From assembly GCA_029961685.1 (NCBI GenBank), contig JARWKL010000012.1, positions 11,687,955 to 11,751,954 of the forward strand: 64,000 bases of DNA. The letters are read 5' to 3'. The position numbers and the translations under genes were made by a program. A model generated the notes under the pieces. It did no database searches. It had not been told where the DNA came from and saw only the letters and a list, made by a program, of their open reading frames with translations. This DNA is from Aristolochia californica (lineage: Eukaryota; Streptophyta; Magnoliopsida; Piperales; Aristolochiaceae). Numbering within the stretch: position 1 is the first letter of the stretch; the number at the start of each line of letters is the position of its first letter. Shown piece after piece: positions 3,372 through 42,101 of this stretch.

Positions 3372-5391
3372 TAGGGAATTTAAGCTCTTTTTAGTTTTTT
3401 TATCTCAGGTTTTGTAATCGTCGGGAAAAGGGGGAGGCGGGCGTGTTTTTAACTGAGTGTTAACTCCTAATCCGTAAGTCATTTCTTACAAAAATATAGC
3501 CCGTTACGGATGACAAATCACTTTACAATCATCTATGATTGTTAGGTAAGCTTTTTGTGAACGGGCAAAATAATGGCTAGTTTGATTCTTGTAAATATCC
3601 CACTGCACGTTCATTGAGAATTTAATGAGTGTTTGTTATTCTCTTTAAAAGCTATGGATCCATAGGTCATTTGCATCTTTAATATGTTTCAAGCATGCAT
3701 ATCCATTTTTAAAACACGTGTAGAAGAAATCTCTTTCTTGTAAAATTCCATGCAATTAGGGTTGAACTAGTGGAATTTCTCAAACTTGGAAAACCAAACT
3801 TTTGTGTTCATTTGTGGTGTGTGAATAAATTTTCTATATTTACATTTGTTATTGTTTTAATTTGTTTTCACACATAAACTCTAAAATTTTCATTTTGTTG
3901 TGATCTGTTTTCCTTTTTTGGTTTACGGGATGAAGGGAGAGCGAAAACTCGAAGTTTTGATTTAAGAAAAAGGTGTACATCTAAAATGGAGATGCACAAT
4001 GCACAAATGTAGGGAGAGATACTTCCAAAGAGTGTTTGTAATTTTTAGGGATTGTAATATCTTTTTAGTTTTTATATCTCAGGTTTTGCAATCGTCGGGA
4101 AAACGAGGTGGCGTGGTATTTTTTACTGACAGTTGACTCCCAATCCGTATGTCATTTCTTACAAAAATATAGCCCTTACTCAAGATAAATCACATTAGAA
4201 TCATCTATCATTTCTAGGTCAGCTTTTGGAAAACGGGCAAAATAATGGCTTGTTTGACTCGGGTAAATATCGCGCCGCACGTTCACTTCAGAATTTAATG
4301 AGTGTTTGTTATTCTCATTAAAAGCTTTGGATCCATAGGTCATTTGCATCTTTAACATGTTTCAAGCATGCATATCCATTTTTAAAACACGTCTAGAAGA
4401 ATTCTCTTTCTTGTAAAATTTCAAGCAATTTGGGTTGAACTAGTGAAATTTCCCAAACATGGATAACAAAAATTTTGAGTTCAATTGTGGTGTGTGAATA
4501 AATTTTCATTACTTATATTTGTTAATGTTTTTATTTTTTTCCATACATAAACTCTAAAATTTACATTTTATTGTGATCTATTTCCCTTTTTTTGTCTACG
4601 ACATGATGGGAGAACGAAAACTCAAAGTTTTGATTTAATAAAAAATTTTACATCTAAAATGGTGATGCAAAATGCACAAATGTAGACAGATATAATTCCG
4701 AAGAGTGTCAGTGATTTTTCAGGATGGTGAGCTCTTTTCAGTTTTTAGTTCTCAGGTCATGCAATCGTCGGGAAAAGGGGGAGGCGGGGGATTTTTAATT
4801 GAGTGTTAACTCCCAATCCGTAAGTCATTTCCTACAATAATATAGCCCATTACGAATGAAAAATCACTTTACAATCATCTATGATTGTTAGGTCAGCTTT
4901 TTGCAAACGGGCAAAATAATGGCTTGTTTGACTCGGGTAAATATCCCACCGCATGTTCACTAGAGATTTTAATGAGCGTATGTTGTTCTCTTTAAAAGCT
5001 TTGGATCCATAGGTCATTTGCATCTTTAACATGTTTCAAGCTTGCATATCCATTTTTAAAACACGTGTGGAACAAATCTCTTTCTTGTAAAATTCCAAGC
5101 TATTAGGGTTGAACTAGTGGAATTTCCAAACTTGGATAAAAAAATTTTTGTGTTAATTTTTGGTGTGTGAATAAATTTTCTTTACTTACATTTGTTATTG
5201 TTTTAAATTTTTTCCATACATAAACTCAAAAATTTTCATTTTGCAGTGATCTATTTGCCTTTTTTTGTTTACGGGATGAAGGGAGAGAGAAAACTCAAAG
5301 TTTTGATTGAAGAAAAAAGTGTAGATCTAAAATGGAGACGCACAATGCACAAATGTAGAGAGAGATAATTCCAATGAGTCTCTGTAATTTT
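3372..5391. repeat. Clean A-B-C trimer (higher-order repeat unit)
   Basis: Three successive units start near 3372 (A), 4045 (B) and 4719 (C), for a total of about 2.02 kb. B shows gggattgtaatatc, acttcagaatttaatgagtg, cacgtctagaagaattc, ttcaattgtggtg and gagagatataattcc. C shows caggatggtgagctc, gaatgaaaaatcac, ctagagattttaatgagcg, AAGCTTGC, gtgtggaacaaatc, ggagacgcacaatg and ccaatgagtc. Each unit's tail matches the head of the next type, which is the rule used to define the cycle. The sequence from 4489 onward is repeated after the N gap. Confidence 0.85.
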
Positions 5392-8300
5392 TAGGGAATT
5401 TAAGCTCTTTTTAGTTTTTATATCTCAGGTTTTGTAATCGTCGGGAAAAGGGGGAGGCAGGGGTGTTTTTAACTGAGTGTTAACTCCCAATCCATAAGTC
5501 ATTTCTTACAAAAATATAGCCCGTTATGGATGATAAATCACTTTTCAATCATCTATGATTGTTAGGTAAGCTTTTTGTGAACGGGCAAAATAATGCCTAG
5601 TTTGATTCTGGTAAATATCCCACCGCACGTTCATTGAGAATTTAATGAGCGTTTGTTGTTCTCTTTAAAAGCTTTGGATCCATAGGTCATTTGCATCTTG
5701 AACATGTTTCAAGCATGCATATCCATTTTTAAAACACGTGTAGAAGAAATCTCTTTCTTGTAAAATTCCATGCAATTAGGGTTGAACTAGTGGAATTTCT
5801 CAAACTTGGAAAACAAAACTTTTGTGTTCATTTTTGGTCTGTAAATAAATTTTCTATACTTACATTTGTTATTGTCTTAATTTTTTTTCACACATAAACT
5901 CTAAAATTTTCATTTTGTTGTGATCTATTTGCCTTTTTCTATTTATGAGATGAAGGGAGAGCGAAAACTCAAAGTTTTGATTTAAGAAAAAAGTGTACAT
6001 CTAAAATGGAGATGCACAATGCACAAATGTAGGGAGACATACTTCCAAAGAATGTTTATAATTTTTAGGAATTGTAAGATCTTTTTAGTTTTTATATCTC
6101 AGGTTTTACAATCGTCGGGAAAATGGGGAGGTATGGTATTTGTAACTGACTGTTGACTCCCAATCCGTATGTCATTTCTTACAAAAATATAGCCCGTTAC
6201 TCATGATAAATCACATTACAATCATCTATGATTGTTAGGTCAGCTTTTTGAAAACGGGCAAAATAATGGATTGTTTGACTTGGGTAAATATCCTGCCGCA
6301 CATTCACTTCAGAATTTAATGAGTGTTTGTTATTCTCATTAAAACCTTTGGATACATAGGTCATTTGCATCTTTAACATGTTTCAAGCATGCATGTCCAT
6401 TTTTAAAGCACGTCTAGAAGAATTCTCTTTCTTGTAAAATTTCAAGCTATTAGGGTTGAACTAGTGGAATTTTGCCAAACTTGGATAACAAAAATTTTGT
6501 GTTCAATTGTGGTGTGTGAATAACTTTTCATTACTTACATTTGTTAATGTTTTAATTTTTTTCCCATACACAACCTCTAAAATTTACATTTTTCTATGAT
6601 CTATTTACCTTTTTTTGTTTACGGCAGGAAGGGAGAACTAAAACTCAAAGTTTTGATTTAATAAAAAAATGTACATCTAAAACGGAGATGCACAATGCTG
6701 TAGAGAGATATAATTCCAAAGAGTGTCTGTAATTTTTCAGGATTGTGAGCTCTTTTTAGCTTTTAGTTCTCAGGTTTTGCAATCGTCGGGAAAAGGGGGA
6801 GGCGGGGGATTTTTAATTGAGTGTTGACTCCCAATCCGTAAGTCATTTCTTACCATAATATAGCCCGTTACGAATGAAAAATCACTTTAAAATCATCTAT
6901 GATTGTTAGGTCGGCTTTTTGCAAACGGGCAAAATAATGGCTTGTTTGACTCGGGCAAATATCCCACCGCACGTTCACTAGAGAATTTAATGAGAGTATG
7001 TTATTCTCTTTAAAAGGTTTGGATCCATAGGTTATTTGCATCTTTAACATGTTTCAAGCTTGCATATCTATTTTTAAAACACGTGTGGAACAAATCTCCT
7101 TCTTGTAAAATTCCAAGCTATTAGGGTTGAACGAGAGGAATTTCCCAAACTTGGAAAAATAAACTTTTGTGTTCATTTGTGGTGTGTGAAAAAATTTTCT
7201 ATACCTACATTTGTTATTGTTTTAATTTTTTTTCACACATAAACTCTAAAATTTTCAATTTGTAGTGATCTATTTGCCTTTTTTGGTTTACGGGATGAAG
7301 GGAGAGCGAAAACTTAAAGTTTTGATTTAATAAAAAGGTGTACATCTAAAATGGAGATGCACAATGCAAAAATGTAGGGAGAGATACTTCCGAAGAGTGT
7401 TAGTAATTTTTAGGAATTGTAAGATCTTTTTTAGTTTTTATATCTCTGGTTTTGCAATCGTCGGGAAAACGGAGAGGCGTGGTGTTTTTAACTGAGTGTT
7501 GACTCGCAATCCGTAAGTCATTTCTTACAAAAATATAGCCCGTTACGGATGATAAATCACTTTACAATCATCTATGATTGTTAGGTAAGCTTTTTGTGAA
7601 CGGGCAAAATAATGGCTAGTTTGATTCTGGTAAATATCCCACCGCACGTTCATTGAGAATTTAATGAGCGTTTGTTATTCTCTTTAAAAGCTTTGGATCC
7701 ATAGGTCATTTGCATCATTAACATGTTTCAAGCATGCATATCTATTTTTAAAACACGTGTAAAAGAAATCTTTTTCTTGTAAAATTCCATGCAATTAGGG
7801 TTGAACTAGTGGAATTTCTCAAACTTGGAAAATAAAACTTTGGTGTTCATTTGTGGATGTGAATAAATTTTCTATCCTTACATTTGTTATTGTTTTAATT
7901 TTTTTTCACACATAAACTCTAAAATTTTCATTTTGTTGTGATCTATTTGCCTTTTTTGGTTTACGGGATGAAGCGCGAGCGAAAACTCAATGTTTTGATT
8001 TAAGAAAAAAGTGTAAATCTAAAATGGAGATGCACAATGCACAATGTAAGGAGAGATAATTCCAAAGAGTGTTTGTAATTTTTTGGGATTGTAAGATCTT
8101 TTTAGTTTTTGTATCTCAGGTTTTGCAATTGTCGGGAAAACGGGAACGCGTGGTATTTTTAACTGACGGTTGACTCCCAATCCGTATGTCATTTCTTAAA
8201 AAAATATAGCCCATTACTCATGATAAATCACATTACAATCATCTATGATTGTTAGGTCAGCTTTTTGAAAACGGGCAAAATAATGGCTTGTTTGACTCGG

Positions 8301-9424
8301 GTAAATATCCCACCAAACGTTGACTTCAGAATTTAATGAGTGTTTGTTATTCTCATTAAAAGCTTTGGATCCATAGGTCATTTGCATCTTTAACTTGTTT
8401 CAAGCATGCATATCCATTTTTATAACACGTCTAGAAGAATTCTCATTCTTGTAAAATTTCAAGCTATTAGGGTTGAACTAGTGGAATTTCCCAAACTTGG
8501 ATAACAAAAATTTTGTGTTCATTTGTGGTGTGAAAATAAATTTTCATTACTTACATATGTTAATGTTTTAATTTTTCTCCATAGATAAACTCTATAATTT
8601 ACATTTAATTGAGATCTATTTACCTTTTTTTGTTTACAGCATGAAGGGAGAACGAAAACTCAAATTTTTGATTTAATAAAAAAGTGTACATCTAAAATGG
8701 AGATGCACAATGCTGTAGAGAGATATAATTCCAAAGAGTGTCTGTGAATTTTCAGGATTGTGAGCTCTTTTTAGTTTTTAGTTCTCAGGTTTTGCAATCG
8801 TCGGGAAAAGGGGGAGGTGGGGGATTTTTAATTGAGTGTTGACTCCCAATCCGTAAGTCATTTCTTACCATAATATAGCCCGTTACGAATGAAAAATCAC
8901 TTTACAATCATCTATGATTGTTAGGTCGGCTTTTTGCAAACGGGCAGAATAATGGCTTGTTTGACTTGGGCAAATATCCCACCGCACGTTCACTAGAGAA
9001 TTTAATGAGCGTATGTTATTCTCTTTAAAAGCTTTGGATCCATAGGTCATTTGCATCTTTAACATGTTTCAAGCTTGCATATCCATTTTTAAAACATGTG
9101 TGGAACAAATCTCCTTCTTGTAAAATTCCAAGCTATTAGGGTTGAACTAGAGGAATTTCCCAAACTTGGATAACAAAAGTTTTGTCTTAATTTTTGGTGT
9201 GTGAATAAATTTTATTTACTTACATTTGTTATTGTTTTAAATTTTTTCCATACAAAAACTCAAAAATTTTCATTTTGCTGTGATATATTTGCCTTTTTTT
9301 GTTTACGGGATGAAGGGAGAGAGAAAACTCAAAGTTTTGATTTAAAAAAAAGGTACACATCTAAAATGGAGACGCACAGTGCACAAATGTAGAGAGAGAT
9401 AATTCCAATGAGTGTCTGTAATTT
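5392..9424. repeat. A, B, C/A hybrid, B/A hybrid, B, C
   Basis: Units start near 5392 (A), 6066 (B), 6737 (C then A), 7411 (B then A), 8083 (B) and 8752 (C). The unit at 6737 has a C head and gtgtggaac but, from about 7160, an A tail (cacacataaactctaaaa, gagcgaaaactt). The next unit begins B-like (gaattgtaagatc, ggagaggcgtgg) and becomes A at about 7490 (ctgagtgttgactcgc, acggatgataaatc). The B units at 6066 and 8083 both read aatgctgtagagag, lacking the five bases ACAAA found in other B units. That marks them, with the unit at 12115, as close relatives. The GGATCC of the unit at 6066 is GGATAC. Confidence 0.8.
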
Positions 9425-11442
9425 TTAGGGAATTTAAGCTCTTTTTAGTTTTTATATCTCAGGTTTCTCAATCGTCGGGAAAAGGGGGAGGCGGGGTGTT
9501 TTTAACTGAGTGTTGACTCCCAATCCGTAAGTCATTTCTTACAAAAATATAGCCCGTTACGGAAGATAAATCACTTTACAATCATCTATGATTGTTAGGT
9601 AAGCTTTTTGTGAACGGGCAAAATAATGACTAGTTTGATTCTGGTAAATATCCCACCGCACGTTCATTGAGAATATAATGAGCGTTTGTTATTCTCTTTA
9701 AAAGCTTTGGATCCATAGGTCATTTGCATCTTTAACATGTTTCAAGCTTGCATATCCATTTTTAAAACACGTGTGGAACAAATCTCCTTCTTGTAAAATT
9801 CCAAGCTATTAGGGTTGAACTAGAGGAATTTCCCAAACTTGGATAACAAAAGTTTTGTGTTAATTTATGGTGTGTGAATAAATTTTATTTACTTACATTT
9901 TTTATTGTTTCAAATTTTTTCCATACATAAACTCAAAAATTTTCATTTTGCTGTGATATATTTGCCTTTTTTTGTTTACGGGATGAAGGGAGAGAGAAAA
10001 CTCAAAGTTTTGACTTAAGAAAAAGGTGCACATCTAAAATGGAGACGCACAGTGCACAAATGTAGAGAGAGATAATTCCAATGAGTGTCTGTAATTTTTA
10101 GGGAATTTAAGCTCATTTTAGTTTTTATATCTCAGGTTTCTCAATCGGCGGGAAAAGGGGGAGGCGGGGTGTTTTTAAGTGAGTGGTGACTCCCAATCCA
10201 TAAGTCATTTCTTACAAAAATATAGCCTGTTACGGATGATAAATCACTTTACAATCATCTATGATTGTTAGGTAAGCTTTTTGTGAACGGGCAAAATAAT
10301 GGCTAGTTTGATTCTGGTAAATATCCCACCACACGTTCATTGAGAATTTAATGGGCGTTTGTTATTCTCTTTAAAAGCTTTGGATCGATAGGTCATTTGC
10401 ATCTTGAACATGATTCAAGCATGCATATCCATTTTTAAAACACAGGTAGAAGAAATCTTTTTCTTGTAAAATTCCATGCAATTAGGGTTGAACTAGTGGA
10501 ATTTCTCAAACTTGGAAAACAAAACTTTGGTGTTCATTTGTGCTTGTGAATAAATTTTCTATACTTACATTTGTTATTGTTTTATTTTTTTTCACACATA
10601 AACTCTAAAATTTTCATTTTGTTGTGATCTATTTGCCTTTTTTGGTTTACGGGATGAAGGGCGAGCGAAAACTCAATGTTTTGATTTAAGAAAAAAGTTT
10701 AAATCTAAAATGGAGATGCACAATGCACAAATGTAGGGAGAGATAATTCCAAAGAGTGTTTGTAATTTTTTGGGATTGTAAGATCTTTTTAGTTTTTGTA
10801 TCTCAGGTTTTGCAATCGTCGGGAAAACGGGGAGGCGTGGTATTTTTAACTGACGGTTGACTCCCAATCCGTATGTCATTTCTTAAAAAAATATAGCCCA
10901 TTACTCATGATAAATCACATTACAATCATCTATGATTGTTAGGTCAGCTTTTTGAAAACGGGCAAAATAATGGCTTGTTTGACTCGGGTAAATATCCCGC
11001 CAAACGTTCACTTCAGAATTTAATGAGCGTTTGTTATTCTCATTAAAAGCTTTGGATCCATATGTCATTTGCATCTTTAACTTGTTTCAAGCATGCATAT
11101 CCATTTTTATAACACGTCTAGAAGAATTCTCTTTCTTGTAAAATTCCAAGCTATTAGGGTTGAACTAGAGGAATTTCCCAAACTTGGATAACAAAAGTTT
11201 TGTCTTAATTTTTGGTGTGTGAATAAATTTTATTTACTTACATTTGTTATTGTTTTAAATTTTTTCCGTACAAAAACTCAAAAATTTTCATTTTGCTGTG
11301 ATATATTTGCCTTTTTTTGTTTACGGGATGAAGGGAGAGAGAAAACTCAAAGTTTTGATTTAAAAAAAAGGTGCACATCTAAAATGGAGACGCACATTGC
11401 ACAAATGTAGAGAGAGATAATTCCAATGAGTGTCTGTAATTT
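9425..11442. repeat. A/C hybrid, A, B/C hybrid
   Basis: The unit at 9425 has an A head (acggaagataaatcac, cattgagaatataatgagcg), but after GGATCC it continues as C (AAGCTTGC, gtgtggaacaaatctcc). The switch lies within about 9709-9750. The unit at 10098 is A, with GGATCG in place of GGATCC. The unit at 10770 is B through cacgtctagaagaattc and then C from about 11140 (ccaagctattagg, gaactagagg). Each hybrid tail is followed by the subtype expected after that tail. Confidence 0.78.
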
Positions 11443-14400
11443 TTAGGGAATTTAAGCTCTTTTTAGGTTTTATATCTCAGGTTTCTCAATCGTCGGGAAA
11501 AGGGGGAGGCGGGGTGTTTTTAACTGAGTGTTGACTCCCAATCCGTAAGTCATTTCTTACAAAAATATAGCCCGTTACGGATGATAAATCACTTTACAAT
11601 CATCTATGATTGTTAGGTAAGCTTTTTGTTAACGGGCAAAATAATGGCTAGTTTGATTCTGGTAAATATCCCACCGCACGTTCATTGAGAATTTAATGAG
11701 CGTTTGTTATTCTCTTTAAAAGCTTTGGATCCATAGGTCATTTGCATCTTTAACATGTTTCAAGCATGCATATCCATTTTTAAAACACGTGTAGAAGAAA
11801 TCTCTTTCTTGTAAAATTCCATGCAATTAGGGTTGAACTAGTGGAATTTCTCAAACTTGGAAAACAAAACTTTGGTGTTCATTTGTGGTGTGTGAATAAA
11901 TTTTCTATACTTTCATTTGTTATTGTGTTAATTTTTTTTCACACATAAACTCTAAAATTTTCATTTTGTTGTAATCTATTTGCCTTTTTTGGTTTACGGG
12001 ATGAAGGGAGAGCGAAAAGTCAAAGTTTTTATTTAAGAAAAAAGTGTACATCTAAAATGGAGATGCACAATGCACATATGTAGGGAGAGATAATTCCAAA
12101 GAGTGTTTGTAATTTTTAGGGATTGTAAGATCTTTTTAGTTTTTGTATCTTAGGTTTTGCAATCGTCGGGAAAACGGGGAGGCGTGGTGTTTTTAACTGA
12201 CGGTTGACTCCGAATCCGTATGTCATTTCTTAAAAAAATATAGCCCGTTACTCATGATAAATCACATTACAATCATCTATGATTGTTCGGTCAGCTTTTT
12301 GAAAACGGACAAAATAATGGCTTGTTTGACTCGGGTAAATATCCCGCCATACGTTCACTTCAGAATTTATTGTGTTTGTTAGTCTCATTAAAAGCTTTGG
12401 ATCCATAGGTCATTTGAATCTTTAACATGTTTCAAGCATGCATATCCATTTTTAAAGCACGTCTAGAAGAATTCTCTTTCTTGTAAAATTTCATGCTATT
12501 AGGGTTGAACTAGTGGAATTTCGCAAACTTGGACAACAAAAATTTTGTGTTCAATTGTGGTGTGTGAATAAATTTTCATTACTTACATTTGTTAATGTTT
12601 TAATTTTTTTCCATACATCAACTGTAAAATTTACATTTTTTTGTTTATGGCATGAAGGGAGAACGAAAACTCAAAGTTTTGATTTAATAAAAAAGTGTAC
12701 ATCTAAAATGGAGATGCACAATGCTGTAGAGAGATATAATTCGAAAGAGTGTCTGTGATTATTCAGGATTGTGAGCTCTTTTCAGTTTTTAGTTCTCAGG
12801 TTTTGCAATCGTCGGGAAAAGGGGGAAGCGGGGATTTTTAATTGAGTGTTGACTCCCAATCCGTAAGTCATTTCTTACAATAATATAGCCCGTTACGAAT
12901 GAAAAATCACTTCACAATCATCTATGATTGTTAGGTCAGCTTTTTGCAAACGGGCAAAATAATGGCTTGTTTGACTCGGGAAAATATCGCACCGCACGTT
13001 CACTAGAGAATTTAATGAGCGTATGTTATTCTCTTTAAAAGCTTTGGATCCATAGGTCATTTGCATCTTTAACATGTTACAAGCTTGCATATCCATTTTT
13101 AAAACACGTGTGGAACAAATCTCCTTCTTGTAAAATTCCAAGCTATTAGGGTTGAACTAGAAGAATTTCCCAAACTTGGATAACAAAAGTTTTGTGTTAA
13201 TTTTTGGTGTGTGAATAAATTTTCTTTAATTACATTTGTTATTGTTTTAAATTTTTTCCACACATAAACTCAAAAATTTTCATTTTGCTGTGATCTATTT
13301 GCCTTTTTTTGTTTACGGGATGAAGGAAGAGGGAAAACTCAAAGTTTTGATTTATGAAAAAAGTGCACATCTAAAATGGAGACGCACAGTGCACAAATGT
13401 AGAGAGAGATAATTCCAATGAGTGTCTGTCATTTTTAGGGAATTTAAGCTCTTTTTAGTATTTATATCTCAGGTTTCTCAATCGTCGGGAAAACGGGAAG
13501 GCGGGGTGTTTTTAACTGAGTGTTGACTCCCAATCCGTAAGTTATTTCTTACAAAAATATAGCTCGTTACGGATGATCAATCACTTTACAATCATCTATG
13601 ATTGTTAGGTAAGCTTTTTGTGAACGAGGAAAATAATGGCTTGTTTGATTCTGGTAATTATCCCACCGCACTTTCATTGAGAATTTAATGAGCGTTTGTT
13701 ATTCTCTTTAAAAGCTTTGGATCCATAGGTCATTTGCATCTTTAACATGTTTCAAGCATGCATATCCATTTTTAAAACACGTGTAGAAGAAATTTCTTTC
13801 TTGTAAAATTCCATGCAATTACGGTTGAACTAGTGGAATTTCTCAAACCTGGAAAACAAAACTTTTGTGTTCATTTGTGGTGTGTGAATAAATTTTCTAT
13901 AATTACATTTGTTATTGTTTTAATTTTTTTTCACACATAAACTCTAAAATTTTCATTTTGTTGTGATCTATTTGCCTTTTTTGGTTTACGAGATGAAGGG
14001 AGAGTGAAAACTCAAAGTTTTGATTTAAGAAAAAAGTGTACATCTAAAATGGAGATGCACAATGCACAAATGTAGGGTGAGATAATTCCAAAGAGTGTTT
14101 GTAATTTTTAGGGATTGTAAGATCTTTTTAGTTTTTGTATCTCAGGTTTTGCAATCGTCAGGAAAACAGGGAGGCGTGGTATTTTTAACTGACTGTTGAC
14201 TCCCAACCCGTATGTCATTTCTTAGAAAAATATAGCCCGTTACTCATGATAAATCACATTACAATCATCTATGATTGTTAGGTCAGCTTTTTGAAAACGG
14301 GCAAAATAATGGCTTGTTTGACTCGGGTGAATATCCCGCCGCTCGTTCAATTCAGAATTTAATGAGTGTTTGTTATTCTCATTAAAAGCTTTGGATGCAT

Positions 14401-15457
14401 AGGTCATGTGCATCTTTAACATGTTTCATGCATGCATATCCATTTTTAAAACACGTCTAGAAGAATTCTCTTTCTTGTAAAATTTCAAGCTATAAAGGTT
14501 GAACCAGTGGAATTTCCCAAACTTGGATAACAAAAATTTTGTGTTCAATTGTGGTGTGTGAATACATTTTCATTACTTACATTTGTTAATGTTTTAATTT
14601 TTTTCCATACATAAACCCTAAAATTTACATTTTGTTGCGATCTATTTACCTTTTTTTGTTTACGGCATGAAGGGAGAACGAGAACTCAAAGTTTTTATTT
14701 ACTAAAAAAGTGTACATCTAAAATGGAGATGCACAATGCAAAAATGTAGAGAGATATAATTCCAAAGAGTGTCTGTGATTTTTCAGGATTTTTAGCTCTT
14801 TTCAGTTTTTAGTACTCAGGTTTTGCAATCGTCGGGAAAAGGGGGAGGCGGGGGATTTTTAATTGAGTGTTGACTCCCAATCCGTAAGTTATTTCTTACA
14901 ATAATATAGCCCATTAGGAATGAAAAATCACTTCACAATCATCTATGATTGTTAGGTAAGCTTTTTGCAAACGGGCAAAATAATGGCTTATTTGACTAGG
15001 GTAAATATCCCACCGCACGTCCACTAGAGAATTTAATGAGCGTATGTTATTCTCTTTAAAAGCTTTGGATCCATAGGTCATTATCATCTTTAACATGTTT
15101 CAAGCTTGCATATCCATTTTTAAAACACGTGTGGAACAAATCTCTTTCTTGTAAAATTCCAAGCTATTAGGGTTGAACTATTGGAATATCCCAAACTTGG
15201 ATAACAAAAGTTTTGTGTTAAGTTTTGGTATTTGAATAAATTTTCTTTACATACATTTGTTATTGTTTAAAATTTTTTCCATGCATAAACTCAAAAATTT
15301 TCATTTTGCTGTGATCTGTTTGCCTTTTTTTAATTACGGGATGAATGGAGAGAGAAAACTCAAAGTTTTGATTTAAGAAAAAAGTTTACATCTAAAATGG
15401 AGACGCACAGTGCAAAAATGTAGAGAGAGATATTTCCAATGAGTGTCTGTAATTTTT
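11443..15457. repeat. Two A-B-C trimers in a row
   Basis: Units start near 11443 (A), 12115 (B), 12762 (C), 13435 (A), 14109 (B) and 14783 (C). This is the longest stretch of unbroken trimer order in the window. The B at 12115 is short (spacing 647 bp): it lacks about 20 bases before tttttttgtttatggc near 12640 and also the ACAAA near 12722. The B at 14109 has GGATGC at the anchor site. Confidence 0.85.
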
Positions 15458-18400: not shown

Positions 18401-18763
18401 TTTAATGAGTGTATTTTATTCTCTTTAAAAGCTTTAGATCCATAGGTCATTTTCAACTTTAGCATGTTTCAAGCTTGCATATCAATTTTTAAAACATGTG
18501 TGGAACAAATCTCTTTCTTGTAAAATTCCGAGCTATTAGGGTTGTACTAGTGGAATTTCTCGAACTTGGATAACAAAAGTTTTGTGTTAATTTTTGGTGT
18601 GTGATTAAATTTTCATTTTGATGTGATCTATTTGCCTTATTTTGTTTACGGGATGAAGGGAGAGAGAAAACTCAAAGTTTTCATTTAAGAAAAAATTTAA
18701 TATCTAAAATGGAGACGCACAGTGTAAAAATTTAGAGAGATAATTCCAATGTGTCTGTAATTT
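15458..18763. repeat. A/B hybrid, C, then A-B-C trimer with a shortened C
   Basis: Units start near 15458 (A head, B from about 15530), 16131 (C), 16804 (A), 17479 (B) and 18152 (C). The first unit switches at the G-rich tract: the A opening gggaatttaagc is followed by ggaggcgtggtattttttac, which is B sequence. The C at 18152 is only about 612 bp long because of a 57-bp deletion near 18610. The two ends of that deletion share the eight bases AAATTTTC, which suggests slippage or short-homology deletion. Confidence 0.8.
18605..18620. other. 57-bp deletion junction with AAATTTTC homology
   Basis: The unit reads gtgattaaattttcattttg, while an intact C unit has about 57 more bases between the first and second AAATTTTC of its T-rich part. 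One copy of that 8-base string remains. The same junction is in the duplicated copy near 37467. Together with four more lost bases it explains the 612-bp spacing to the next GGATCC. Confidence 0.85.
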
Positions 18764-20220
18764 TTAGGGAATTTAAGCTCTTTTTAGTTTTTATATCTCA
18801 GGTTTTGCAATCGTCGGGAAAAGGGGGAGGCGGGGTGTTTTTAACTGAGTGTTGACTCCCAATCCGTAAGTCATTTCTTACAAAAATATAGCCCGTTACA
18901 GATGATAAATCACTTTACAATCACATATGATTGTTAGGTAAGCTTTTTGTGTACGGGCAAAATAATGGCTAGTTTGATTCTGGTAAATATCCCACCTCAC
19001 GTTCATTGAGAATTTAATGAGCGTTTGTTATTCTCTTTAAAAGCTTTGGATCCATAGGTCATTTGAATCTTTAACATGTTTCAAGCATGCATATCCATTT
19101 TTAAAACACGTGTAGAAGAAATCACTTTCTCTTAAAATTCCATGCAATTAGGGTTGAACTAGTGGAATTTCTCAAACTTGGAAAGCAAAACTTTTGTGTT
19201 CATTTGTGGTGTGTGAATAAATTTTCTATACTTACATTTTTTATTGTTTTAATTTTTTTTTCACACATAAACTCTAAAATTTTCATTTTATTTTGATCTA
19301 TTTGCCTTTTTTTTTTTACGGGATGAAGGGAGAACGAAAACACAAAGTTTTGATTTAAGAAAAAAGTGTACATCTAAAATGGAGATGCACAATGCGCGAA
19401 TGTAGGGAGAGATAATTCCCAAGAGTGTTTGTAATTTTTAGGGATTGTTAGATCTTTTTAGTTTATGTATCTCAGGTTTTGCAATCGTCGGGAAAAGGGG
19501 GAGGCGTGGTATTTTTAACTGACTGTTGACTCTACCGTAAGTCATTTCTTGAAAAAATATAGCCCGTTACTCATGATAAATCACATTACAATCATCTATG
19601 ATTGTTCAGTAAGCTTTTTGAAAACGGGCAAAATAACGGCTTGTTTGACTCGGGTAAATATCCCGCCGCTCGTTCACTTCAGAATTTAATGAGTGTTTGT
19701 CATTCTCATTAAATGCTTTGGATCCATAGGTCATTTGCATCTTTAACATGTTTCAAGCATGCATATCCATTTTTAAAACACGTCTAGAAGAATTCTCTTT
19801 CTTGTAAAATTTAAAGCTATTAGGGTTGAACTAGTAGAATTTCCCAAACTTGGATAACAAAAATTTTGTGCTCAATTGTGGTGTGTGAATAAATTTTCAT
19901 TACTTACATTTGTTAATGTTTTAATTTTTTTCCATACATAAACTCAAAAATTTACATTTTGTTGTGATCTATTTACCTTTTTTTGTTTTCGGCATGAAGG
20001 GAGAACGAAAACTCAAAGTTTTGATTTAATAAAAAGTGTACATCTAAAATGGAGATGCACAATGCACAAATGTAGAGAGATATAATTCCAAAGAGTGTCT
20101 GTGATTTTTCAGGATTGTGAGCTCTTTTCTGTTCTTAGTTCTCAGGTTTTGCAATCATCGGGAAAATGGGGAGGCGGGGGATTTTTAATTGAGTGTTGAC
20201 TCCCATCCGTAAGTCATTTC

Positions 20221-20226
20221 TTATCT
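20221..20226. other. Deletion junction, ~43-45 bp, left half of dyad lost
   Basis: The sequence reads catttcttatctatgattg where other units have about 43 more bases between 'ctta' and 'tctatgattg'. The lost part includes atatagcccgttac and the left arm of the inverted repeat. Sequence before the junction is C-type and sequence after it is A-type, so the deletion sits exactly at a subtype switch. The same junction is seen at about 45101 and, in the duplicated copy, at about 39078. Confidence 0.85.
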
Positions 20227-21470: not shown

Positions 21471-21486
21471 CGGGGGGGGCGGGGTG
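21471..21486. other. Longest G run, eight G
   Basis: In the unit starting at 21414 the G-rich tract is cggggggggcggggtg, with eight consecutive G. Other units have at most about five. The same run appears in the duplicated copy near 40329. It could be local expansion by slippage or a consensus error in a homopolymer. Confidence 0.75.
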
Positions 21487-29300: not shown

Positions 29301-32300
29301 GGTAGAAGAAATCTTTTTCTTGTAAAATTCCATGCAATTAGGGTTGAACTAGTGGAATTTCTCAAACTTGGAAAACAAAACTTTGGTGTTCATTTGTGCT
29401 TGTGAATAAATTTTCTATACTTACATTTGTTATTGTTTTATTTTTTTTTCACACATAAACTCTAAAATTTTCATTTTGTTGTGATCTATTTGCCTTTTTT
29501 GGTTTACGGGATGAAGGGCGAGCGAAAACTCAATGTTTTGATTTAAGAAAAAAGTTTAAATCTAAAATGGAGATGCACAATGCACAAATGTAGGGAGAGA
29601 TAATTCCAAAGAGTGTTTGTAATTTTTTGGGATTGTAAGATCTTTTTAGTTTTTGTATCTCAGGTTTTGCAATCGTCGGGAAAACGGGGAGGCGTGGTAT
29701 TTTTAACTGACGGTTGACTCCCAATCCGTATGTCATTTCTTAAAAAAATATAGCCCATTACTCATGATAAATCACATTACAATCATCTATGATTGTTAGG
29801 TCAGCTTTTTGAAAACGGGCAAAATAATGGCTTGTTTGACTCGGGTAAATATCCCGCCAAACGTTCACTTCAGAATTTAATGAGCGTTTGTTATTCTCAT
29901 TAAAAGCTTTGGATCCATATGTCATTTGCATCTTTAACTTGTTTCAAGCATGCATATCCATTTTTATAACACGTCTAGAAGAATTCTCTTTCTTGTAAAA
30001 TTCCAAGCTATTAGGGTTGAACTAGAGGAATTTCCCAAACTTGGATAACAAAAGTTTTGTCTTAATTTTTGGTGTGTGAATAAATTTTATTTACTTACAT
30101 TTGTTATTGTTTTAAATTTTTTCCGTACAAAAACTCAAAAATTTTCATTTTGCTGTGATATATTTGCCTTTTTTTGTTTACGGGATGAAGGGAGAGAGAA
30201 AACTCAAAGTTTTGATTTAAAAAAAAGGTGCACATCTAAAATGGAGACGCACATTGCACAAATGTAGAGAGAGATAATTCCAATGAGTGTCTGTAATTTT
30301 TAGGGAATTTAAGCTCTTTTTAGGTTTTATATCTCAGGTTTCTCAATCGTCGGGAAAAGGGGGAGGCGGGGTGTTTTTAACTGAGTGTTGACTCCCAATC
30401 CGTAAGTCATTTCTTACAAAAATATAGCCCGTTACGGATGATAAATCACTTTACAATCATCTATGATTGTTAGGTAAGCTTTTTGTTAACGGGCAAAATA
30501 ATGGCTAGTTTGATTCTGGTAAATATCCCACCGCACGTTCATTGAGAATTTAATGAGCGTTTGTTATTCTCTTTAAAAGCTTTGGATCCATAGGTCATTT
30601 GCATCTTTAACATGTTTCAAGCATGCATATCCATTTTTAAAACACGTGTAGAAGAAATCTCTTTCTTGTAAAATTCCATGCAATTAGGGTTGAACTAGTG
30701 GAATTTCTCAAACTTGGAAAACAAAACTTTGGTGTTCATTTGTGGTGTGTGAATAAATTTTCTATACTTTCATTTGTTATTGTGTTAATTTTTTTTCACA
30801 CATAAACTCTAAAATTTTCATTTTGTTGTAATCTATTTGCCTTTTTTGGTTTACGGGATGAAGGGAGAGCGAAAAGTCAAAGTTTTTATTTAAGAAAAAA
30901 GTGTACATCTAAAATGGAGATGCACAATGCACATATGTAGGGAGAGATAATTCCAAAGAGTGTTTGTAATTTTTAGGGATTGTAAGATCTTTTTAGTTTT
31001 TGTATCTTAGGTTTTGCAATCGTCGGGAAAACGGGGAGGCGTGGTGTTTTTAACTGACGGTTGACTCCGAATCCGTATGTCATTTCTTAAAAAAATATAG
31101 CCCGTTACTCATGATAAATCACATTACAATCATCTATGATTGTTCGGTCAGCTTTTTGAAAACGGACAAAATAATGGCTTGTTTGACTCGGGTAAATATC
31201 CCGCCATACGTTCACTTCAGAATTTATTGTGTTTGTTAGTCTCATTAAAAGCTTTGGATCCATAGGTCATTTGAATCTTTAACATGTTTCAAGCATGCAT
31301 ATCCATTTTTAAAGCACGTCTAGAAGAATTCTCTTTCTTGTAAAATTTCATGCTATTAGGGTTGAACTAGTGGAATTTCGCAAACTTGGACAACAAAAAT
31401 TTTGTGTTCAATTGTGGTGTGTGAATAAATTTTCATTACTTACATTTGTTAATGTTTTAATTTTTTTCCATACATCAACTGTAAAATTTACATTTTTTTG
31501 TTTATGGCATGAAGGGAGAACGAAAACTCAAAGTTTTGATTTAATAAAAAAGTGTACATCTAAAATGGAGATGCACAATGCTGTAGAGAGATATAATTCG
31601 AAAGAGTGTCTGTGATTATTCAGGATTGTGAGCTCTTTTCAGTTTTTAGTTCTCAGGTTTTGCAATCGTCGGGAAAAGGGGGAAGCGGGGATTTTTAATT
31701 GAGTGTTGACTCCCAATCCGTAAGTCATTTCTTACAATAATATAGCCCGTTACGAATGAAAAATCACTTCACAATCATCTATGATTGTTAGGTCAGCTTT
31801 TTGCAAACGGGCAAAATAATGGCTTGTTTGACTCGGGAAAATATCGCACCGCACGTTCACTAGAGAATTTAATGAGCGTATGTTATTCTCTTTAAAAGCT
31901 TTGGATCCATAGGTCATTTGCATCTTTAACATGTTACAAGCTTGCATATCCATTTTTAAAACACGTGTGGAACAAATCTCCTTCTTGTAAAATTCCAAGC
32001 TATTAGGGTTGAACTAGAAGAATTTCCCAAACTTGGATAACAAAAGTTTTGTGTTAATTTTTGGTGTGTGAATAAATTTTCTTTACTTACATTTGTTATT
32101 GTTTTAAATTTTTTCCACACATAAACTCAAAAATTTTCATTTTGCTGTGATCTATTTGCCTTTTTTTGTTTACGGGATGAAGGAAGAGGGAAAACTCAAA
32201 GTTTTGATTTATGAAAAAAGTGCACATCTAAAATGGAGACGCACAGTGCACAAATGTAGAGAGAGATAATTCCAATGAGTGTCTGTCATTTTTAGGGAAT

Positions 32301-35300
32301 TTAAGCTCTTTTTAGTATTTATATCTCAGGTTTCTCAATCGTCGGGAAAACGGGAAGGCGGGGTGTTTTTAACTGAGTGTTGACTCCCAATCCGTAAGTT
32401 ATTTCTTACAAAAATATAGCTCGTTACGGATGATCAATCACTTTACAATCATCTATGATTGTTAGGTAAGCTTTTTGTGAACGAGGAAAATAATGGCTTG
32501 TTTGATTCTGGTAATTATCCCACCGCACTTTCATTGAGAATTTAATGAGCGTTTGTTATTCTCTTTAAAAGCTTTGGATCCATAGGTCATTTGCATCTTT
32601 AACATGTTTCAAGCATGCATATCCATTTTTAAAACACGTGTAGAAGAAATTTCTTTCTTGTAAAATTCCATGCAATTACGGTTGAACTAGTGGAATTTCT
32701 CAAACCTGGAAAACAAAACTTTTGTGTTCATTTGTGGTGTGTGAATAAATTTTCTATAATTACATTTGTTATTGTTTTAATTTTTTTTCACACATAAACT
32801 CTAAAATTTTCATTTTGTTGTGATCTATTTGCCTTTTTTGGTTTACGAGATGAAGGGAGAGTGAAAACTCAAAGTTTTGATTTAAGAAAAAAGTGTACAT
32901 CTAAAATGGAGATGCACAATGCACAAATGTAGGGTGAGATAATTCCAAAGAGTGTTTGTAATTTTTAGGGATTGTAAGATCTTTTTAGTTTTTGTATCTC
33001 AGGTTTTGCAATCGTCAGGAAAACAGGGAGGCGTGGTATTTTTAACTGACTGTTGACTCCCAACCCGTATGTCATTTCTTAGAAAAATATAGCCCGTTAC
33101 TCATGATAAATCACATTACAATCATCTATGATTGTTAGGTCAGCTTTTTGAAAACGGGCAAAATAATGGCTTGTTTGACTCGGGTGAATATCCCGCCGCT
33201 CGTTCAATTCAGAATTTAATGAGTGTTTGTTATTCTCATTAAAAGCTTTGGATGCATAGGTCATGTGCATCTTTAACATGTTTCATGCATGCATATCCAT
33301 TTTTAAAACACGTCTAGAAGAATTCTCTTTCTTGTAAAATTTCAAGCTATAAAGGTTGAACCAGTGGAATTTCCCAAACTTGGATAACAAAAATTTTGTG
33401 TTCAATTGTGGTGTGTGAATACATTTTCATTACTTACATTTGTTAATGTTTTAATTTTTTTCCATACATAAACCCTAAAATTTACATTTTGTTGCGATCT
33501 ATTTACCTTTTTTTGTTTACGGCATGAAGGGAGAACGAGAACTCAAAGTTTTTATTTACTAAAAAAGTGTACATCTAAAATGGAGATGCACAATGCAAAA
33601 ATGTAGAGAGATATAATTCCAAAGAGTGTCTGTGATTTTTCAGGATTTTTAGCTCTTTTCAGTTTTTAGTACTCAGGTTTTGCAATCGTCGGGAAAAGGG
33701 GGAGGCGGGGGATTTTTAATTGAGTGTTGACTCCCAATCCGTAAGTTATTTCTTACAATAATATAGCCCATTAGGAATGAAAAATCACTTCACAATCATC
33801 TATGATTGTTAGGTAAGCTTTTTGCAAACGGGCAAAATAATGGCTTATTTGACTAGGGTAAATATCCCACCGCACGTCCACTAGAGAATTTAATGAGCGT
33901 ATGTTATTCTCTTTAAAAGCTTTGGATCCATAGGTCATTATCATCTTTAACATGTTTCAAGCTTGCATATCCATTTTTAAAACACGTGTGGAACAAATCT
34001 CTTTCTTGTAAAATTCCAAGCTATTAGGGTTGAACTATTGGAATATCCCAAACTTGGATAACAAAAGTTTTGTGTTAAGTTTTGGTATTTGAATAAATTT
34101 TCTTTACATACATTTGTTATTGTTTAAAATTTTTTCCATGCATAAACTCAAAAATTTTCATTTTGCTGTGATCTGTTTGCCTTTTTTTAATTACGGGATG
34201 AATGGAGAGAGAAAACTCAAAGTTTTGATTTAAGAAAAAAGTTTACATCTAAAATGGAGACGCACAGTGCAAAAATGTAGAGAGAGATATTTCCAATGAG
34301 TGTCTGTAATTTTTAGGGAATTTAAGCTTTTTTTAGTGTTTATATCTCAGGTTTTGCAATCGTCGGGAAAAGGGGGAGGCGTGGTATTTTTTACTGACTG
34401 TTGACTCTCAATCCGTATGTCATTACTTACAAAAACTATAGCCCGTTACTCATGATAAATTACATTACAATCATCTATGATTGTTAGGTCAGCTTTTTGA
34501 AAACGGGCAAAATAATGGCTTGTTTGACTCGGGTAAATATCCCGTCGAATGTTCACTTCAGAATTTAATGAGTGTTTGTTATTCTCATTAAAATATTTGG
34601 ATCCATAGGTCATTTGCATCTTTAACATGTTTCAACCATGCATATCCATTTTTAAAACACGTCTAGAAGAATTCTCTTTCTTGTAAAATTTCAAGCTATT
34701 CGGGTTGAACTAGTGGAATTTGCCAAACTTGGATAACAAAAATTTTGTGTTCAATTGTGGTGTGTGAATAAATTTTCATTACTTAAATTTGTTAATGTTT
34801 TAATTTTTTTTCATACATAAAATCTAAAATTTACATTTTTTTGTGATCTATTTACCTTTTTTTGTTTCGGCTTGAAGGGAGAACGAAAACTCAAATTATT
34901 GATTTAATAAAAAAGTGTACATCTAAAATGGAGATTCACATTGCACCAATGTAGAGAGATATAATTCCAAAGAGTGTCTGTGATTTTTCAGGATTGTGAG
35001 CTCCTTTCAGTTTTTTGTTCTCAGGTTTTGCAATCGTCGGGAAAAGGGGGAGGCGGGGGATTTTTAATTGAGTGTTGACTCCCAATCTGTAAGTCATTTC
35101 TTACAATAATATAGACCGTTACGAATGAAAAATCACTTTACAATCATCTATGATTGTTAGGTAAGCTTTTTGTAAACGGGCAAAATAATGGCTTGTTTGA
35201 CTCGGGCAATTATCCCACCGCACGTTCACTAGAGAATTTAATGAGCGTATGTTATTCTCTTTAAAAGCATTGGATCCATAGGTCATTTGCATCTTTAACA

Positions 35301-38300
35301 TGTTTCAAGCTTGCATATCCATTTTTAAAACATGTGTGGAACAAATCTCTTTCTTGTAAAATTCCAAGCTATTAGGGTTGAACTAGAGGAATTTCCCAAA
35401 CTTGGATAACAAAAGTTTTGTGTTAATTTTTGGTGTGTGAATAAATTTTCTTTACTTACATTTGTTATTGTTTTAAATTTTTTCAATACATAAACTCAAA
35501 AATTTTCATTTTCCTGTGATCTATTTGCCTTTTTTTGTTTACGGGATGAAGGGAGAGAGAAAACTCATAGTTTTGATTTAAGAAAAAAGTGCACATCTAA
35601 AATGGAAACGCACAGTGCACAAATGTAGAGAGAGATAATTCCAATGAGTGTCCGTAATTTTTAGGGAATTTAAGCTCTTTTTAGTTTTTATATCTCAGGT
35701 TTCTCAATCGTCTGGAAAAGGGGGAGGCGGGGTGTTTTTAACTGAGTGTTGACTCCCAATCTGTAAGTCATTTCTTACAAAAATATAGCCCGTTATGGAT
35801 GATAAATCACTTTACAATCATCTATGATTGTCAGGTAAGCTTTTTCTGAACGAGCAAAATATTGACTAGTTTGATTCTGGTAAATATCCCACCGCACGTT
35901 CATTGAGAATTTAATGAGTGTTTGTTATTCTCTTTAAAAGCTTTGGATCCTTAGGTCATTTGCATCTTTAACATGTTTCAAGCATACATATCCATTTTTA
36001 AAACACATGTAGAAGAAATCTCTTTCTTGTAAAATTCCATGCAATTGGGGTTGAACTAGTGGAATTTCTAAAACTTGGAAAACAAAACTTTTGTGTTCAT
36101 TTGTGGTGTGTGAATAAATTTTCTATACTTACATTTGTTATTATTTTAATTTTTTTTCGCACATAAACTCTAAAATTTTCATTTTGTAGTGATCTATTTG
36201 CCTTTTTTGGTTTATGGGATGAAGGGAGAGCGAAAACTCAAAGTTTTGATTTAAGAAAAAATTGTACATCTAAAATGGAGATGTACAATGAATGCACAAA
36301 TGTGGGGAGAGATAATTCCAAAGAGTGTTTGTAATTTTTAGGGATTGTAAGATCTTTTTAGTTTATGTATCTCAGGTTTTGCAATCGTTGGGAAAAGGGG
36401 GAGGCGTGGTATTTTTAACTGATTGTTGACTCTACCGTATGTCATTTTTTAAAAAAATATAGCCCGTTAGTCATGATAAATCGCATTAAAATCATCTATG
36501 ATTGTTAGGTCAGCTTTTTGACAACTGGCAAAATTACGGCTTGTTTCACTCGGGTAAATATCCCGCCGCTCATTCACTTCAGAATTTAATGAGTGTTTGT
36601 TATTCTCATTAAAAGCTTTGGATCCATAGGTCATGTGCATCTTTAACATGTTTCAAGCATGCATATCCATTTTTAAAACACGTCTAGAAGAATTCTCTTT
36701 CTTGTAAAATTTCAAGCTATTAGGGTTGAACTAGTGGAATTTGCCAAACTTGCATAACAAAAATTTTGTGTTCAATTTTGGTGTGTGAATAAATTTTCAT
36801 TACTTACATTTGTTAATGTTTTAATTTTTTTCCATACATAAACTCTAAAATTTACATTTTGTTGCGATCTATTTACCTTTTTTTGTTTACGGCATGAAGG
36901 GAGAACGAAAACTCAAACTTTTGATTTACTAAAAAAGTGTACATCTAAAATGGAGATGCACAATGCAAAAATGTAGAGACATATAATTCCAAAGAGTGTC
37001 TGTGATTTTTCAGGATTGTGAGATCTTTTCAGTTTTTAGTACTCAGGTTTTGCAATCGTCGGGAAAAGGGGGAGGCGGTGGATTTTTAATTGAGTGTTGA
37101 CTCCCAATCCGTAAGTCATTTCTTACAATAATGTAGTCCGTTACAAATGAAAAATCACTTTACAATCATCTATGATTGTTAGGTCAGCTTTTCGCAAACG
37201 GGCAAAATAATGGCTTCTTTGACCGGGTAAATATCCCACCGCACGTTCACTAGAGAATTTAATGAGTGTATTTTATTCTCTTTAAAAGCTTTAGATCCAT
37301 AGGTCATTTTCAACTTTAGCATGTTTCAAGCTTGCATATCAATTTTTAAAACATGTGTGGAACAAATCTCTTTCTTGTAAAATTCCGAGCTATTAGGGTT
37401 GTACTAGTGGAATTTCTCGAACTTGGATAACAAAAGTTTTGTGTTAATTTTTGGTGTGTGATTAAATTTTCATTTTGATGTGATCTATTTGCCTTATTTT
37501 GTTTACGGGATGAAGGGAGAGAGAAAACTCAAAGTTTTCATTTAAGAAAAAATTTAATATCTAAAATGGAGACGCACAGTGTAAAAATTTAGAGAGATAA
37601 TTCCAATGTGTCTGTAATTTTTAGGGAATTTAAGCTCTTTTTAGTTTTTATATCTCAGGTTTTGCAATCGTCGGGAAAAGGGGGAGGCGGGGTGTTTTTA
37701 ACTGAGTGTTGACTCCCAATCCGTAAGTCATTTCTTACAAAAATATAGCCCGTTACAGATGATAAATCACTTTACAATCACATATGATTGTTAGGTAAGC
37801 TTTTTGTGTACGGGCAAAATAATGGCTAGTTTGATTCTGGTAAATATCCCACCTCACGTTCATTGAGAATTTAATGAGCGTTTGTTATTCTCTTTAAAAG
37901 CTTTGGATCCATAGGTCATTTGAATCTTTAACATGTTTCAAGCATGCATATCCATTTTTAAAACACGTGTAGAAGAAATCACTTTCTCTTAAAATTCCAT
38001 GCAATTAGGGTTGAACTAGTGGAATTTCTCAAACTTGGAAAGCAAAACTTTTGTGTTCATTTGTGGTGTGTGAATAAATTTTCTATACTTACATTTTTTA
38101 TTGTTTTAATTTTTTTTTCACACATAAACTCTAAAATTTTCATTTTATTTTGATCTATTTGCCTTTTTTTTTTTACGGGATGAAGGGAGAACGAAAACAC
38201 AAAGTTTTGATTTAAGAAAAAAGTGTACATCTAAAATGGAGATGCACAATGCGCGAATGTAGGGAGAGATAATTCCCAAGAGTGTTTGTAATTTTTAGGG

Positions 38301-41300
38301 ATTGTTAGATCTTTTTAGTTTATGTATCTCAGGTTTTGCAATCGTCGGGAAAAGGGGGAGGCGTGGTATTTTTAACTGACTGTTGACTCTACCGTAAGTC
38401 ATTTCTTGAAAAAATATAGCCCGTTACTCATGATAAATCACATTACAATCATCTATGATTGTTCAGTAAGCTTTTTGAAAACGGGCAAAATAACGGCTTG
38501 TTTGACTCGGGTAAATATCCCGCCGCTCGTTCACTTCAGAATTTAATGAGTGTTTGTCATTCTCATTAAATGCTTTGGATCCATAGGTCATTTGCATCTT
38601 TAACATGTTTCAAGCATGCATATCCATTTTTAAAACACGTCTAGAAGAATTCTCTTTCTTGTAAAATTTAAAGCTATTAGGGTTGAACTAGTAGAATTTC
38701 CCAAACTTGGATAACAAAAATTTTGTGCTCAATTGTGGTGTGTGAATAAATTTTCATTACTTACATTTGTTAATGTTTTAATTTTTTTCCATACATAAAC
38801 TCAAAAATTTACATTTTGTTGTGATCTATTTACCTTTTTTTGTTTTCGGCATGAAGGGAGAACGAAAACTCAAAGTTTTGATTTAATAAAAAGTGTACAT
38901 CTAAAATGGAGATGCACAATGCACAAATGTAGAGAGATATAATTCCAAAGAGTGTCTGTGATTTTTCAGGATTGTGAGCTCTTTTCTGTTCTTAGTTCTC
39001 AGGTTTTGCAATCATCGGGAAAATGGGGAGGCGGGGGATTTTTAATTGAGTGTTGACTCCCATCCGTAAGTCATTTCTTATCTATGATTGTTAGGTAAGC
39101 TTTTTGTGAACGGACAAAATAATTGCTAGTTTGATTCTGGTAAATATCCCACCGCATGTTCATTGAGAATTTAATGAGCTTTTGTTATTCTCTTTAAAAG
39201 CTTTGGATCCATAGGTCATTTGTATCTTTAACATGCTTCAAGCATGCATATCCATTTTTGAAACACGGGTAGAAGAAATCTCTTTCTTGTAAAATTCCAT
39301 GCAATTATGGTTGAATTAGTGGAATTTCTAAAACTTGGAAAACAAAACTTTTGTGTTCATTTGTGGTGTGTGAATAAATTTTCTATACTTACATTTGTTA
39401 TTGTTTTAATTTTTTTTCACACATAAACTCTAAAATTTTCATTTTGTTGTGATCTATTTGCCTTTTTTGGTTTACGGGATGAAGGGAGAGCGAAAACTCA
39501 AAGTTTTGATTTAAGAAAAAATTGTACATCTAAAATGGAGATGCAGAATGCACAAATGTAGGGAGAGATAATTCCAAAGAGTGTTTGTAATTTTTAGGGA
39601 TTGTAAGATCTTTTTAGTTTTTGTATCTCAGGTTTTCCAATCGTCGGGAAAACGGGGAGGTGTGGTATTTTTAACTGACTGTTGACTCCCAATCCGGCTA
39701 TCATTTCTTACAAAAATATAGCCCATTACTCATGATAAATCACATTACAATCATCTATGATTGTTAGGTCAGCTTTTTGAAAACGGGCAAAATAATGGCT
39801 TGTTTGACTCGGGTAAATATCCCGCCGCACGTTCACTTCAGAATTTAATGAGTGTTTTTTATTCTCTTTAAAAGCTTTGGATCCATAGGTCATTTGCATC
39901 TTTAAAATGTTTCAAACTTGCATATCCATTTTTAAAACACGTGTGGTACAAATCTCTTTCGTGTAAAATTCCAAGCAATTATGGTTGAACTAGTGGAATT
40001 TCCCAAACTTGGATAACAAAAGTTTTGTATTAATTTTTGGTATGTGAATAAATTTTATTTACTTACATTTGTTATTTTTTTAAATTTTTTCCATAAATAA
40101 ACTCAAAAAATTTCATTTTTACTGTGATCTATTTGCCTTTTTTTGTTTACGAGATGATGGGAGAGAGAAAACACAAAGTTTTGATTTAAGAAAAAAGTGT
40201 ACGTCTAAAATGGAGACGCACAATGCACAAATGTAGAGAGAGATAATTCCAATGAGTGTTTGTAACTTTTAGGGAATTTAAGCCCTTTTTAGTTTTTATA
40301 TCTCAGGTTTTGCAATCGTCGGAAAAACGGGGGGGGCGGGGTGTTTTTAACTGAGTGTTGACTCCCAATCCGTAAGTCATTTCTTACAAAAATATAGCCC
40401 GTTACGGATGATAAATCACCTTACAATCAACTATGATTGTTAGGTCAGCTTTTTGAAAATGGGCAAAATAATGGCTTGTTTGACTCGGGTAAATATCCCG
40501 CCGCACGTTCACTTTAGAATTTAATGAGTGTTTGTTATTCTCATTAAAATCTTTGGATCCATAGGTCATTTGCATCTTTAACATGTTTCAAGCATGCATA
40601 TCCATTTTTAAAACACATCTAGAAGAATTCTCTTTCTTGTAAAATTTCAAGCTATTAGGGTTGAACTAGTGGAATTTCCCAAACTTGGATAACAAAAATT
40701 TTGTGCTCAATTGTGGTGTGTGAATAAATTTTCATTACATACATTTGTTAATGTTTTAATTTTTTTTCCTTACATAAACTCTAAAATTTACATTTTGTTG
40801 TGATCAATTTACCTTTTTTTGTTTTCGGCATGAACGGAGAACGAAAACTCAAAGTTTTGATTTAATAAAAAAGTGTAAATCTAAAATGGAGATGCACAAT
40901 GCACAAATGTAGAGAGATATAATTCCAAAGAGTGTCTGTGATTTTTCAGGATTGTGAGCTCTTTTCGGTTTTTAGTTCTCAGGTTTTGCAATCGTCGGGA
41001 AAGCGGGGAGGCTTAGTATTTTTAACTGACTGTTCACTCCCAATCCGTATGTCATTCCTTACAAAAATATAGCCCGTTACTCATGATAAATCACATTACA
41101 ATCATCTATGATTGTTAGGTCAACTTTTTGAAAACGGGGAAAATAATGGCTTGTTTGACTCAGGTAAATATCCCGCCACTCGTTCACTTCAGAATTTAAT
41201 GAGTGTTTGTTATTCTCATTAAAAGCTTTGGATTGATAGGTAATTTCCATCTTTAACATGTTTCAAGCATGCATATCCATTTTTAAAACACTTCTAGAAG

Positions 41301-42101
41301 AATTCTCTTTCTTGTAAAATTTCAAGCTATTAGGGTTGAACTAGTGGAATTTCCAAAACTTGGATAACAAAAATTTTGTGTTCAATTGTGGTGTGTGAAT
41401 AAATTTTCATTACTTGAATTTGTTAATGTTTTAATTTTTTTCCATACATAAACTCTAAAATTTACATTTTGTTTTGATCTATTTACCCTTTTTTGTTTAC
41501 AGCATGAAGGGAGAACGAAAACTCAAAGTTTTGATTTAATAAAAAAGTGTACATCTAAAATGGAGATGCGCAATGCACAAACGTAGAGAGATATAATTCC
41601 AAAGAGTGTATGTGATTTTTCAGGATTGTGAGCTCTTTTCAGTTTTTAGTTCTTAGGTTTTGCAATCGTCGAGAAAAGGGGAAGGCGGGGGATTTTCAAT
41701 TGAGTGTTGACTCCCAATCCGTAAGTCATTTCTTACAATAATATAACCCGTTACGAATGAAAAATCACTTTACAATCATCTATGATTGTTAGGTCATTAT
41801 TTTGAAAACGGGCAAAATAATGGCTTGTTTGACTCGAGTAAATATCTCACCGCACGTTCACTAGAGAATTTAATGAGCGTATGTTATTCTCTTTAAAAGC
41901 TTTGGATCTATAGGTCATTTGCATCTTTAACATGTTTCAAGCTTGCATATCCATTTTTAAAACATGTGTGGAACAAATCTCTTTCTTGTAAAATTCCAAG
42001 CTATTAGGGTTGAACTAGTGGAATTTCCCAAACTTGGATAACAAAAGTTTTGTGTTAATTTTTGGTGTGCCAATAAATTTTCTTTACTTACATTTTTTAT
42101 T
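23345..42101. repeat. Right copy of ~18.76 kb near-identical duplication
   Basis: The copy starts with the first base after the N gap, inside a B monomer, and ends at 42101, the counterpart of the last base before the gap. Beyond 42101 the sequence runs on without interruption through the rest of the same C monomer. All subtype, hybrid and deletion assignments given for 4489-23244 apply here at +18856 or +18857. Counterparts include the C/A deletion unit near 38967, the 57-bp deletion near 37467 and the run of eight G near 40329. Because the duplicated ends abut the gap on both sides, I think this is more likely one locus assembled twice than a biological duplication. Confidence 0.93.

Follow-up and report, generated by a model that had tools for sequence, protein, structure and literature searches.

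A near-identical 18.76-kb duplicate around a gap in an Aristolochia californica satellite array is very probably an assembly artefact

Results

A satellite array with a duplicate on both sides of its gap

The stretch analysed here (the window, 64,000 bp) comprises positions 11,687,955-11,751,954 of contig JARWKL010000012.1 (C24) of the Aristolochia californica assembly GCA_029961685.1. A single satellite array fills the window, and its ~674-bp monomers follow each other head to tail from end to end. Tandem Repeats Finder reported a period of 673 across positions 1-63999, and the monomer matches abut. The array is interrupted by a single run of N at positions 23245-23344, exactly 100 N long, which is also the sole gap within C24:11,637,955-11,801,954. 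On both sides of this gap lies nearly the same 18.76 kb of sequence, which is very probably one locus that was assembled twice.

The repeat had been described by eye in an earlier note, with about six differences between its copies. The alignment of positions 4489-23244 (18,756 bp) with positions 23345-42101 (18,757 bp) confirmed it and gave exactly six differences, five substitutions and one indel of a single T in a T run, with all other bases identical. The copies form a suffix-prefix match, in which the left copy runs up to the final base ahead of the gap and the first base behind the gap opens the right copy; the exact abutment stated in the note was thus correct to the base. Contiguous sequence across the junction of the copies, as expected of a true tandem, was not found: within the window they meet at the 100-N gap alone.

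The monomer consensus stands at position 38 where the gap begins and at position 1 where the sequence resumes. A literal gap of 100 bp therefore does not fit, because the monomer register would be broken, whereas an overlap of two contig ends needs no gap at this junction.

The identity of the copies was compared with the background of the array. For this, 95 monomers were aligned, and the statistics were taken from the 67 monomers outside the left copy (2,211 pairs). Their pairwise identity ranged from 0.853 to 0.969 with a mean of 0.891. Among the 60 longest self-matches listed, the next-best off-diagonal block of at least 15 kb was 91.3% identical. A wider comparison at a threshold of at least 97% covered 264 kb, made up of two stretches of C24 (164 kb and 60 kb) and 40 kb from a second contig, C491. 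In these 264 kb no match longer than 5 kb was found beyond the window pair and C491, and the only further match above 700 bp was one of 1,058 bp with 98.3-98.4% identity. It joins window positions 48313-49369 to C24:11,348,659-11,349,715 (98.3%, ~390 kb apart) and to the C491 counterpart of the latter. Short recent copies thus exist far apart in the array.

The genome (659,574,684 bases in 521 contigs) was also searched with window positions 18700-21000. Among the 34 candidates scored out of 18,332, two places matched at 100%, which are the two window copies, and the next-best places matched at 97%, at C24:11,340,653 and in C491. Of the 69 matches listed in this search, C24 accounted for 67, between 6.8 and 13.5 Mb, and C491 for 2; judged from these hits, the satellite is perhaps specific to the chromosome represented by C24. 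A genome search with window positions 42102-45000, in which 4 of 28,676 candidates were scored, did not list the place of the window itself and carries no weight for copy number.

A second gap with the same signature and a contig that crosses it once

From C24, 264,000 bases were read in three stretches, together with three loci of 5.3 kb elsewhere. This sequence contained only two runs of N, the window gap and a second one, again of 100 N, at C24:11,259,872-11,259,971, 451,227 bp upstream of the window gap. The parts read between the two gaps were 11,259,972-11,277,000, 11,310,001-11,370,000 and 11,637,955-11,711,198, and the remaining ~301 kb may hold more gaps. At the second gap, C24:11,245,191-11,259,871 is the same as C24:11,259,972-11,274,652 over 14,681 bp with 0 differences. 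Both gaps in the C24 sequence read (2 of 2) therefore carry a dovetail: the suffix of one contig is the prefix of the next, with 100 N in between.

Contig C491 (109,241 bp) was read at 1-40000, 92551-93550 and 100001-109241, in total 50,241 bases. In reversed orientation it starts with 1,510 bp identical to C24:11,243,681-11,245,190, the left flank of the second overlap, and then continues directly with the sequence that follows the gap. All 9,241 bases of C491:100001-109241 equal the sequence upstream of the second gap. At the far end of the overlap, in C491:92551-93550, the leading 500 bases of the reversed piece are identical to the end of the sequence upstream of the gap, and all 1,000 bases match the sequence downstream of it with 1 mismatch. 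Further away, C491:1-40000 differs from C24:11,327,703-11,367,693 by 7 substitutions and 3 indels. Over the part between, the two remain collinear, since C491:40000-100703 and C24:11,327,703-11,267,000 both span 60,703. C491 crosses the second overlap once and is therefore a single-copy path there in the same assembly. On this comparison the duplicate at the second gap is false, unless C491 comes from a haplotype that differs in this respect.

The assembly holds near-identical sequence twice, because C491 and C24 show 10 differences in 40,000 bases and the window pair 6 in 18,757. The difference rate of the window pair did not depart from that of the C491 bases compared (6/18,757 against 10/47,029; Fisher p 0.42; one further C491 mismatch, found after this comparison, is not included in the 10). 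As a whole, the 109-kb contig C491 appears to repeat a part of the chromosome, C24:11243681-11367703, with near-identity in the 50,241 bases read; by its sequence it is probably a retained haplotig or an alternative path. At C491:24261, compared with C24:11343442, a G run has nine additional G, in all likelihood through an error in the consensus or through slippage.

The six differences between the copies

Each difference was compared with the corresponding site in 66 other monomers. The rare base was in the left copy at 6571, 6574 and 13229 and in the right copy at 28330 and 29145 (Table 1). Both substitutions private to the right copy are changes of CpG to CpA. The chance of two or more such changes among five substitutions was ~0.0015 for random changes and 0.045 under the array's own change spectrum, values that come from small numbers examined post hoc. 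Because two of the five substitutions are of this type, two haplotypes or two real copies are favoured over pure consensus error, and for some of the six differences real mutations, and hence two haplotypes, are plausible. The indel in the T run may be an error. A clustering of the differences in the first half of the copy had only weak statistical support (0.03, or 0.06 with the neighbouring pair counted once).

Table 1. Features of the window in order of position; pairs of positions and bases are given as left copy/right copy
Feature	Position	Strand	Remarks
Unduplicated sequence left of the overlap, belonging to the contig before the gap	1..4488	+	~674-bp satellite monomers
Left overlap copy, 18.76 kb, ends at the gap	4489..23244	+	28 monomers + 38 bp
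Two substitutions, 3 bp apart	6571/25427 C/T; 6574/25430 C/A	+	left bases in 0/66 other monomers at each site
Substitution	9474/28330 G/A	+	right A in 2/66 other monomers; CpG to CpA
Substitution	10289/29145 G/A	+	right A in 0/66 other monomers; CpG to CpA
T-run length difference	10593/29449 -/T	+	right copy one T longer
Substitution	13229/32086 A/C	+	left A in 2/66, right C in 58/66 other monomers
100-N gap	23245..23344 (C24:11711199-11711298)	.	N run
Right overlap copy, starts at the gap	23345..42101	+	
Sequence right of the overlap, satellite array continuing	42102..64000	+	

Other features of the array

Right of the gap the monomers showed a weak periodicity of three, with a mean identity of 0.904 at lag 3, whereas the remaining lags between 1 and 12 gave 0.881-0.900. 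Transitions among the window monomers, counted only at sites where the commonest base reaches at least 80%, amounted to 103/1,541 cells in CpG, 37/804 in CHG and 239/10,452 at other C/G positions. This excess in CpG and CHG is as expected for a methylated plant satellite. The array resembles long-monomer satellite arrays in general in its head-to-tail ~674-bp monomers, their ~89% identity and the raised CpG and CHG transition rates.

The window contains no stop-to-stop open reading frame of 120 amino acids, a tRNA search of it found none, and an Rfam search of it gave no match at the gathering score. A literature search for a published name of the ~674-bp satellite gave no identification. PMC2543021 was tried as a candidate and rejected, since the matching text in that source refers to a 1,674-bp size marker.

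Three further features were observed in the array outside the window. At C24:11752838-11771198 there is a 14.4-kb self-match of 95% identity with a shift of ~4,040 bp, or six monomers, which by its sequence would be an older block duplication or a higher-order repeat. Between C24:11787721 and 11787722 the orientation of the array flips from plus to minus monomers. At C24:11679895-11680781 the array is interrupted by ~0.9 kb that is not satellite and has short repeats within it; this segment may be a fragment of a mobile element.

Discussion

The sequence data point with very high probability to an artefact in which one locus was assembled twice, when the forms with one and with two haplotypes are taken together. 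The assembly would have broken within the ~674-bp satellite array and left two contig ends with sequence in common over perhaps the length of one read. During scaffolding the contigs would then have been ordered and the 100-N spacer inserted, with the overlap left unmerged. The true local sequence would be a single copy, and the window would contain an excess of 18,757 bp and the 100 N, in agreement with the ~18.86 kb given in the earlier note. That note had proposed either an unmerged overlap or haplotypes placed in series, and the second dovetail together with the single-copy path of C491 supports this. As the window gap lies in the same array, has the same 100-N spacer and shows the same kind of dovetail as the second gap, the same cause is by far the likeliest, and by this analogy we infer that it acted at both. 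The overlap at the window gap would be read-sized, and its six differences would be a few heterozygous sites, consensus errors or both. Three points weigh against this explanation. The single-copy contig path was shown at the second gap only; the second overlap is free of differences over 14,681 bp and the window overlap has 6 in 18,757, so that the two are unlike in that respect; and the two CpG to CpA changes among the five substitutions look more like real mutations than like random read errors.

In the form known as heterotype false duplication, the sequence before the gap would come from one parental copy and that after it from the other. This would still be an artefact, set apart from the overlap of contig ends solely by where the six differences come from. 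Private bases occur in both copies, three substitutions on the left and two on the right, both of the latter CpG to CpA, and C491 differs from the chromosome at a similarly low rate in the parts read. The C491 match also reaches ~107.7 kb beyond the second gap, which is probably too long for a read overlap. On the other hand, overlaps of 14.7 and 18.8 kb would fit contig ends that overlap at the scale of reads, and the second overlap is without any difference. We consider this form possible but rather doubtful, and it is included in our judgement of the artefact as a whole.

A real tandem duplication of recent origin, with a length of at least 18.76 kb or 28 monomers, could also produce the picture if the gap hides its junction. 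The earlier note had taken the position of both ends at the gap as an argument against it, and this argument is insufficient alone. A true tandem duplication was simulated with four placements of the gap, and three of them gave the same dovetail; the exception was a gap that did not reach the junction. If the period of a duplication is U and M bases are missing at a gap across its junction, the match that remains visible is U-M long and abuts the gap from either side. Satellite arrays grow by unequal exchange. Block duplications in this array are indicated by the 14.4-kb self-match right of the window, though it is far more diverged, and short recent copies by the 1,058-bp match. What speaks against a real duplication is that the second gap has the same signature and C491 carries a single copy there, and that among the 264 kb compared only C491 provided another near-identical block above 5 kb. 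To stay in register, moreover, it needs ~636 bp plus multiples of 674 to be missing, compared with the 100 shown, although the 100 N are probably a placeholder. We regard a real duplication as very improbable. More improbable still, and close to negligible, is a misjoin of two distinct loci of the array that had become near-identical by homogenisation. A scaffolder can wrongly join satellite ends, but distinct monomers are only 0.853-0.969 identical and the best other listed block of comparable length reaches 91.3%, so that nothing else in the sequence compared comes close to 99.97% along 28 consecutive monomers in the same order. Homogenisation as the source of the near-identity was rejected on this background identity.

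Assembly artefacts of this kind are documented. According to the account of false duplications in PMC8081667, homotype false duplications arise at contig boundaries, often have the length of a corrected read and become a tandem duplication with a gap after scaffolding; the corresponding part of PMC9516828 names gaps between duplicated pairs on one scaffold as a mark of false duplications. The window duplicate is probably of this homotype kind, perhaps with a small number of differences between haplotypes. It shares with the cases outlined in PMC8081667 the dovetailing contig ends that were scaffolded into a gap-separated tandem duplication, and it differs from them in lying in a satellite array and in its five substitutions, which are maybe haplotypic. 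To the heterotype false duplications treated in the same parts of PMC8081667 and PMC9516828 it is similar in the near-identical, gap-separated copies on one scaffold, the low-level differences and the retained C491. In those sources the haplotypes are divergent, whereas the window copies differ by only 0.03%.

The window duplicate is almost certainly an ordinary, documented assembly error and not a real feature. If it were real, it would directly document an unequal exchange of large extent in an array that is old elsewhere (~89% identical). Analyses of copy number, homogenisation or recent duplication would count 18,757 bp at the window gap and 14,681 bp at the second gap twice, and C491 would count the region of the second gap once more. 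Outside the window, the second gap adds an excess of 14,681 bp plus 100 N. A check of the gaps of this assembly for dovetails is therefore advisable before its satellites are studied.

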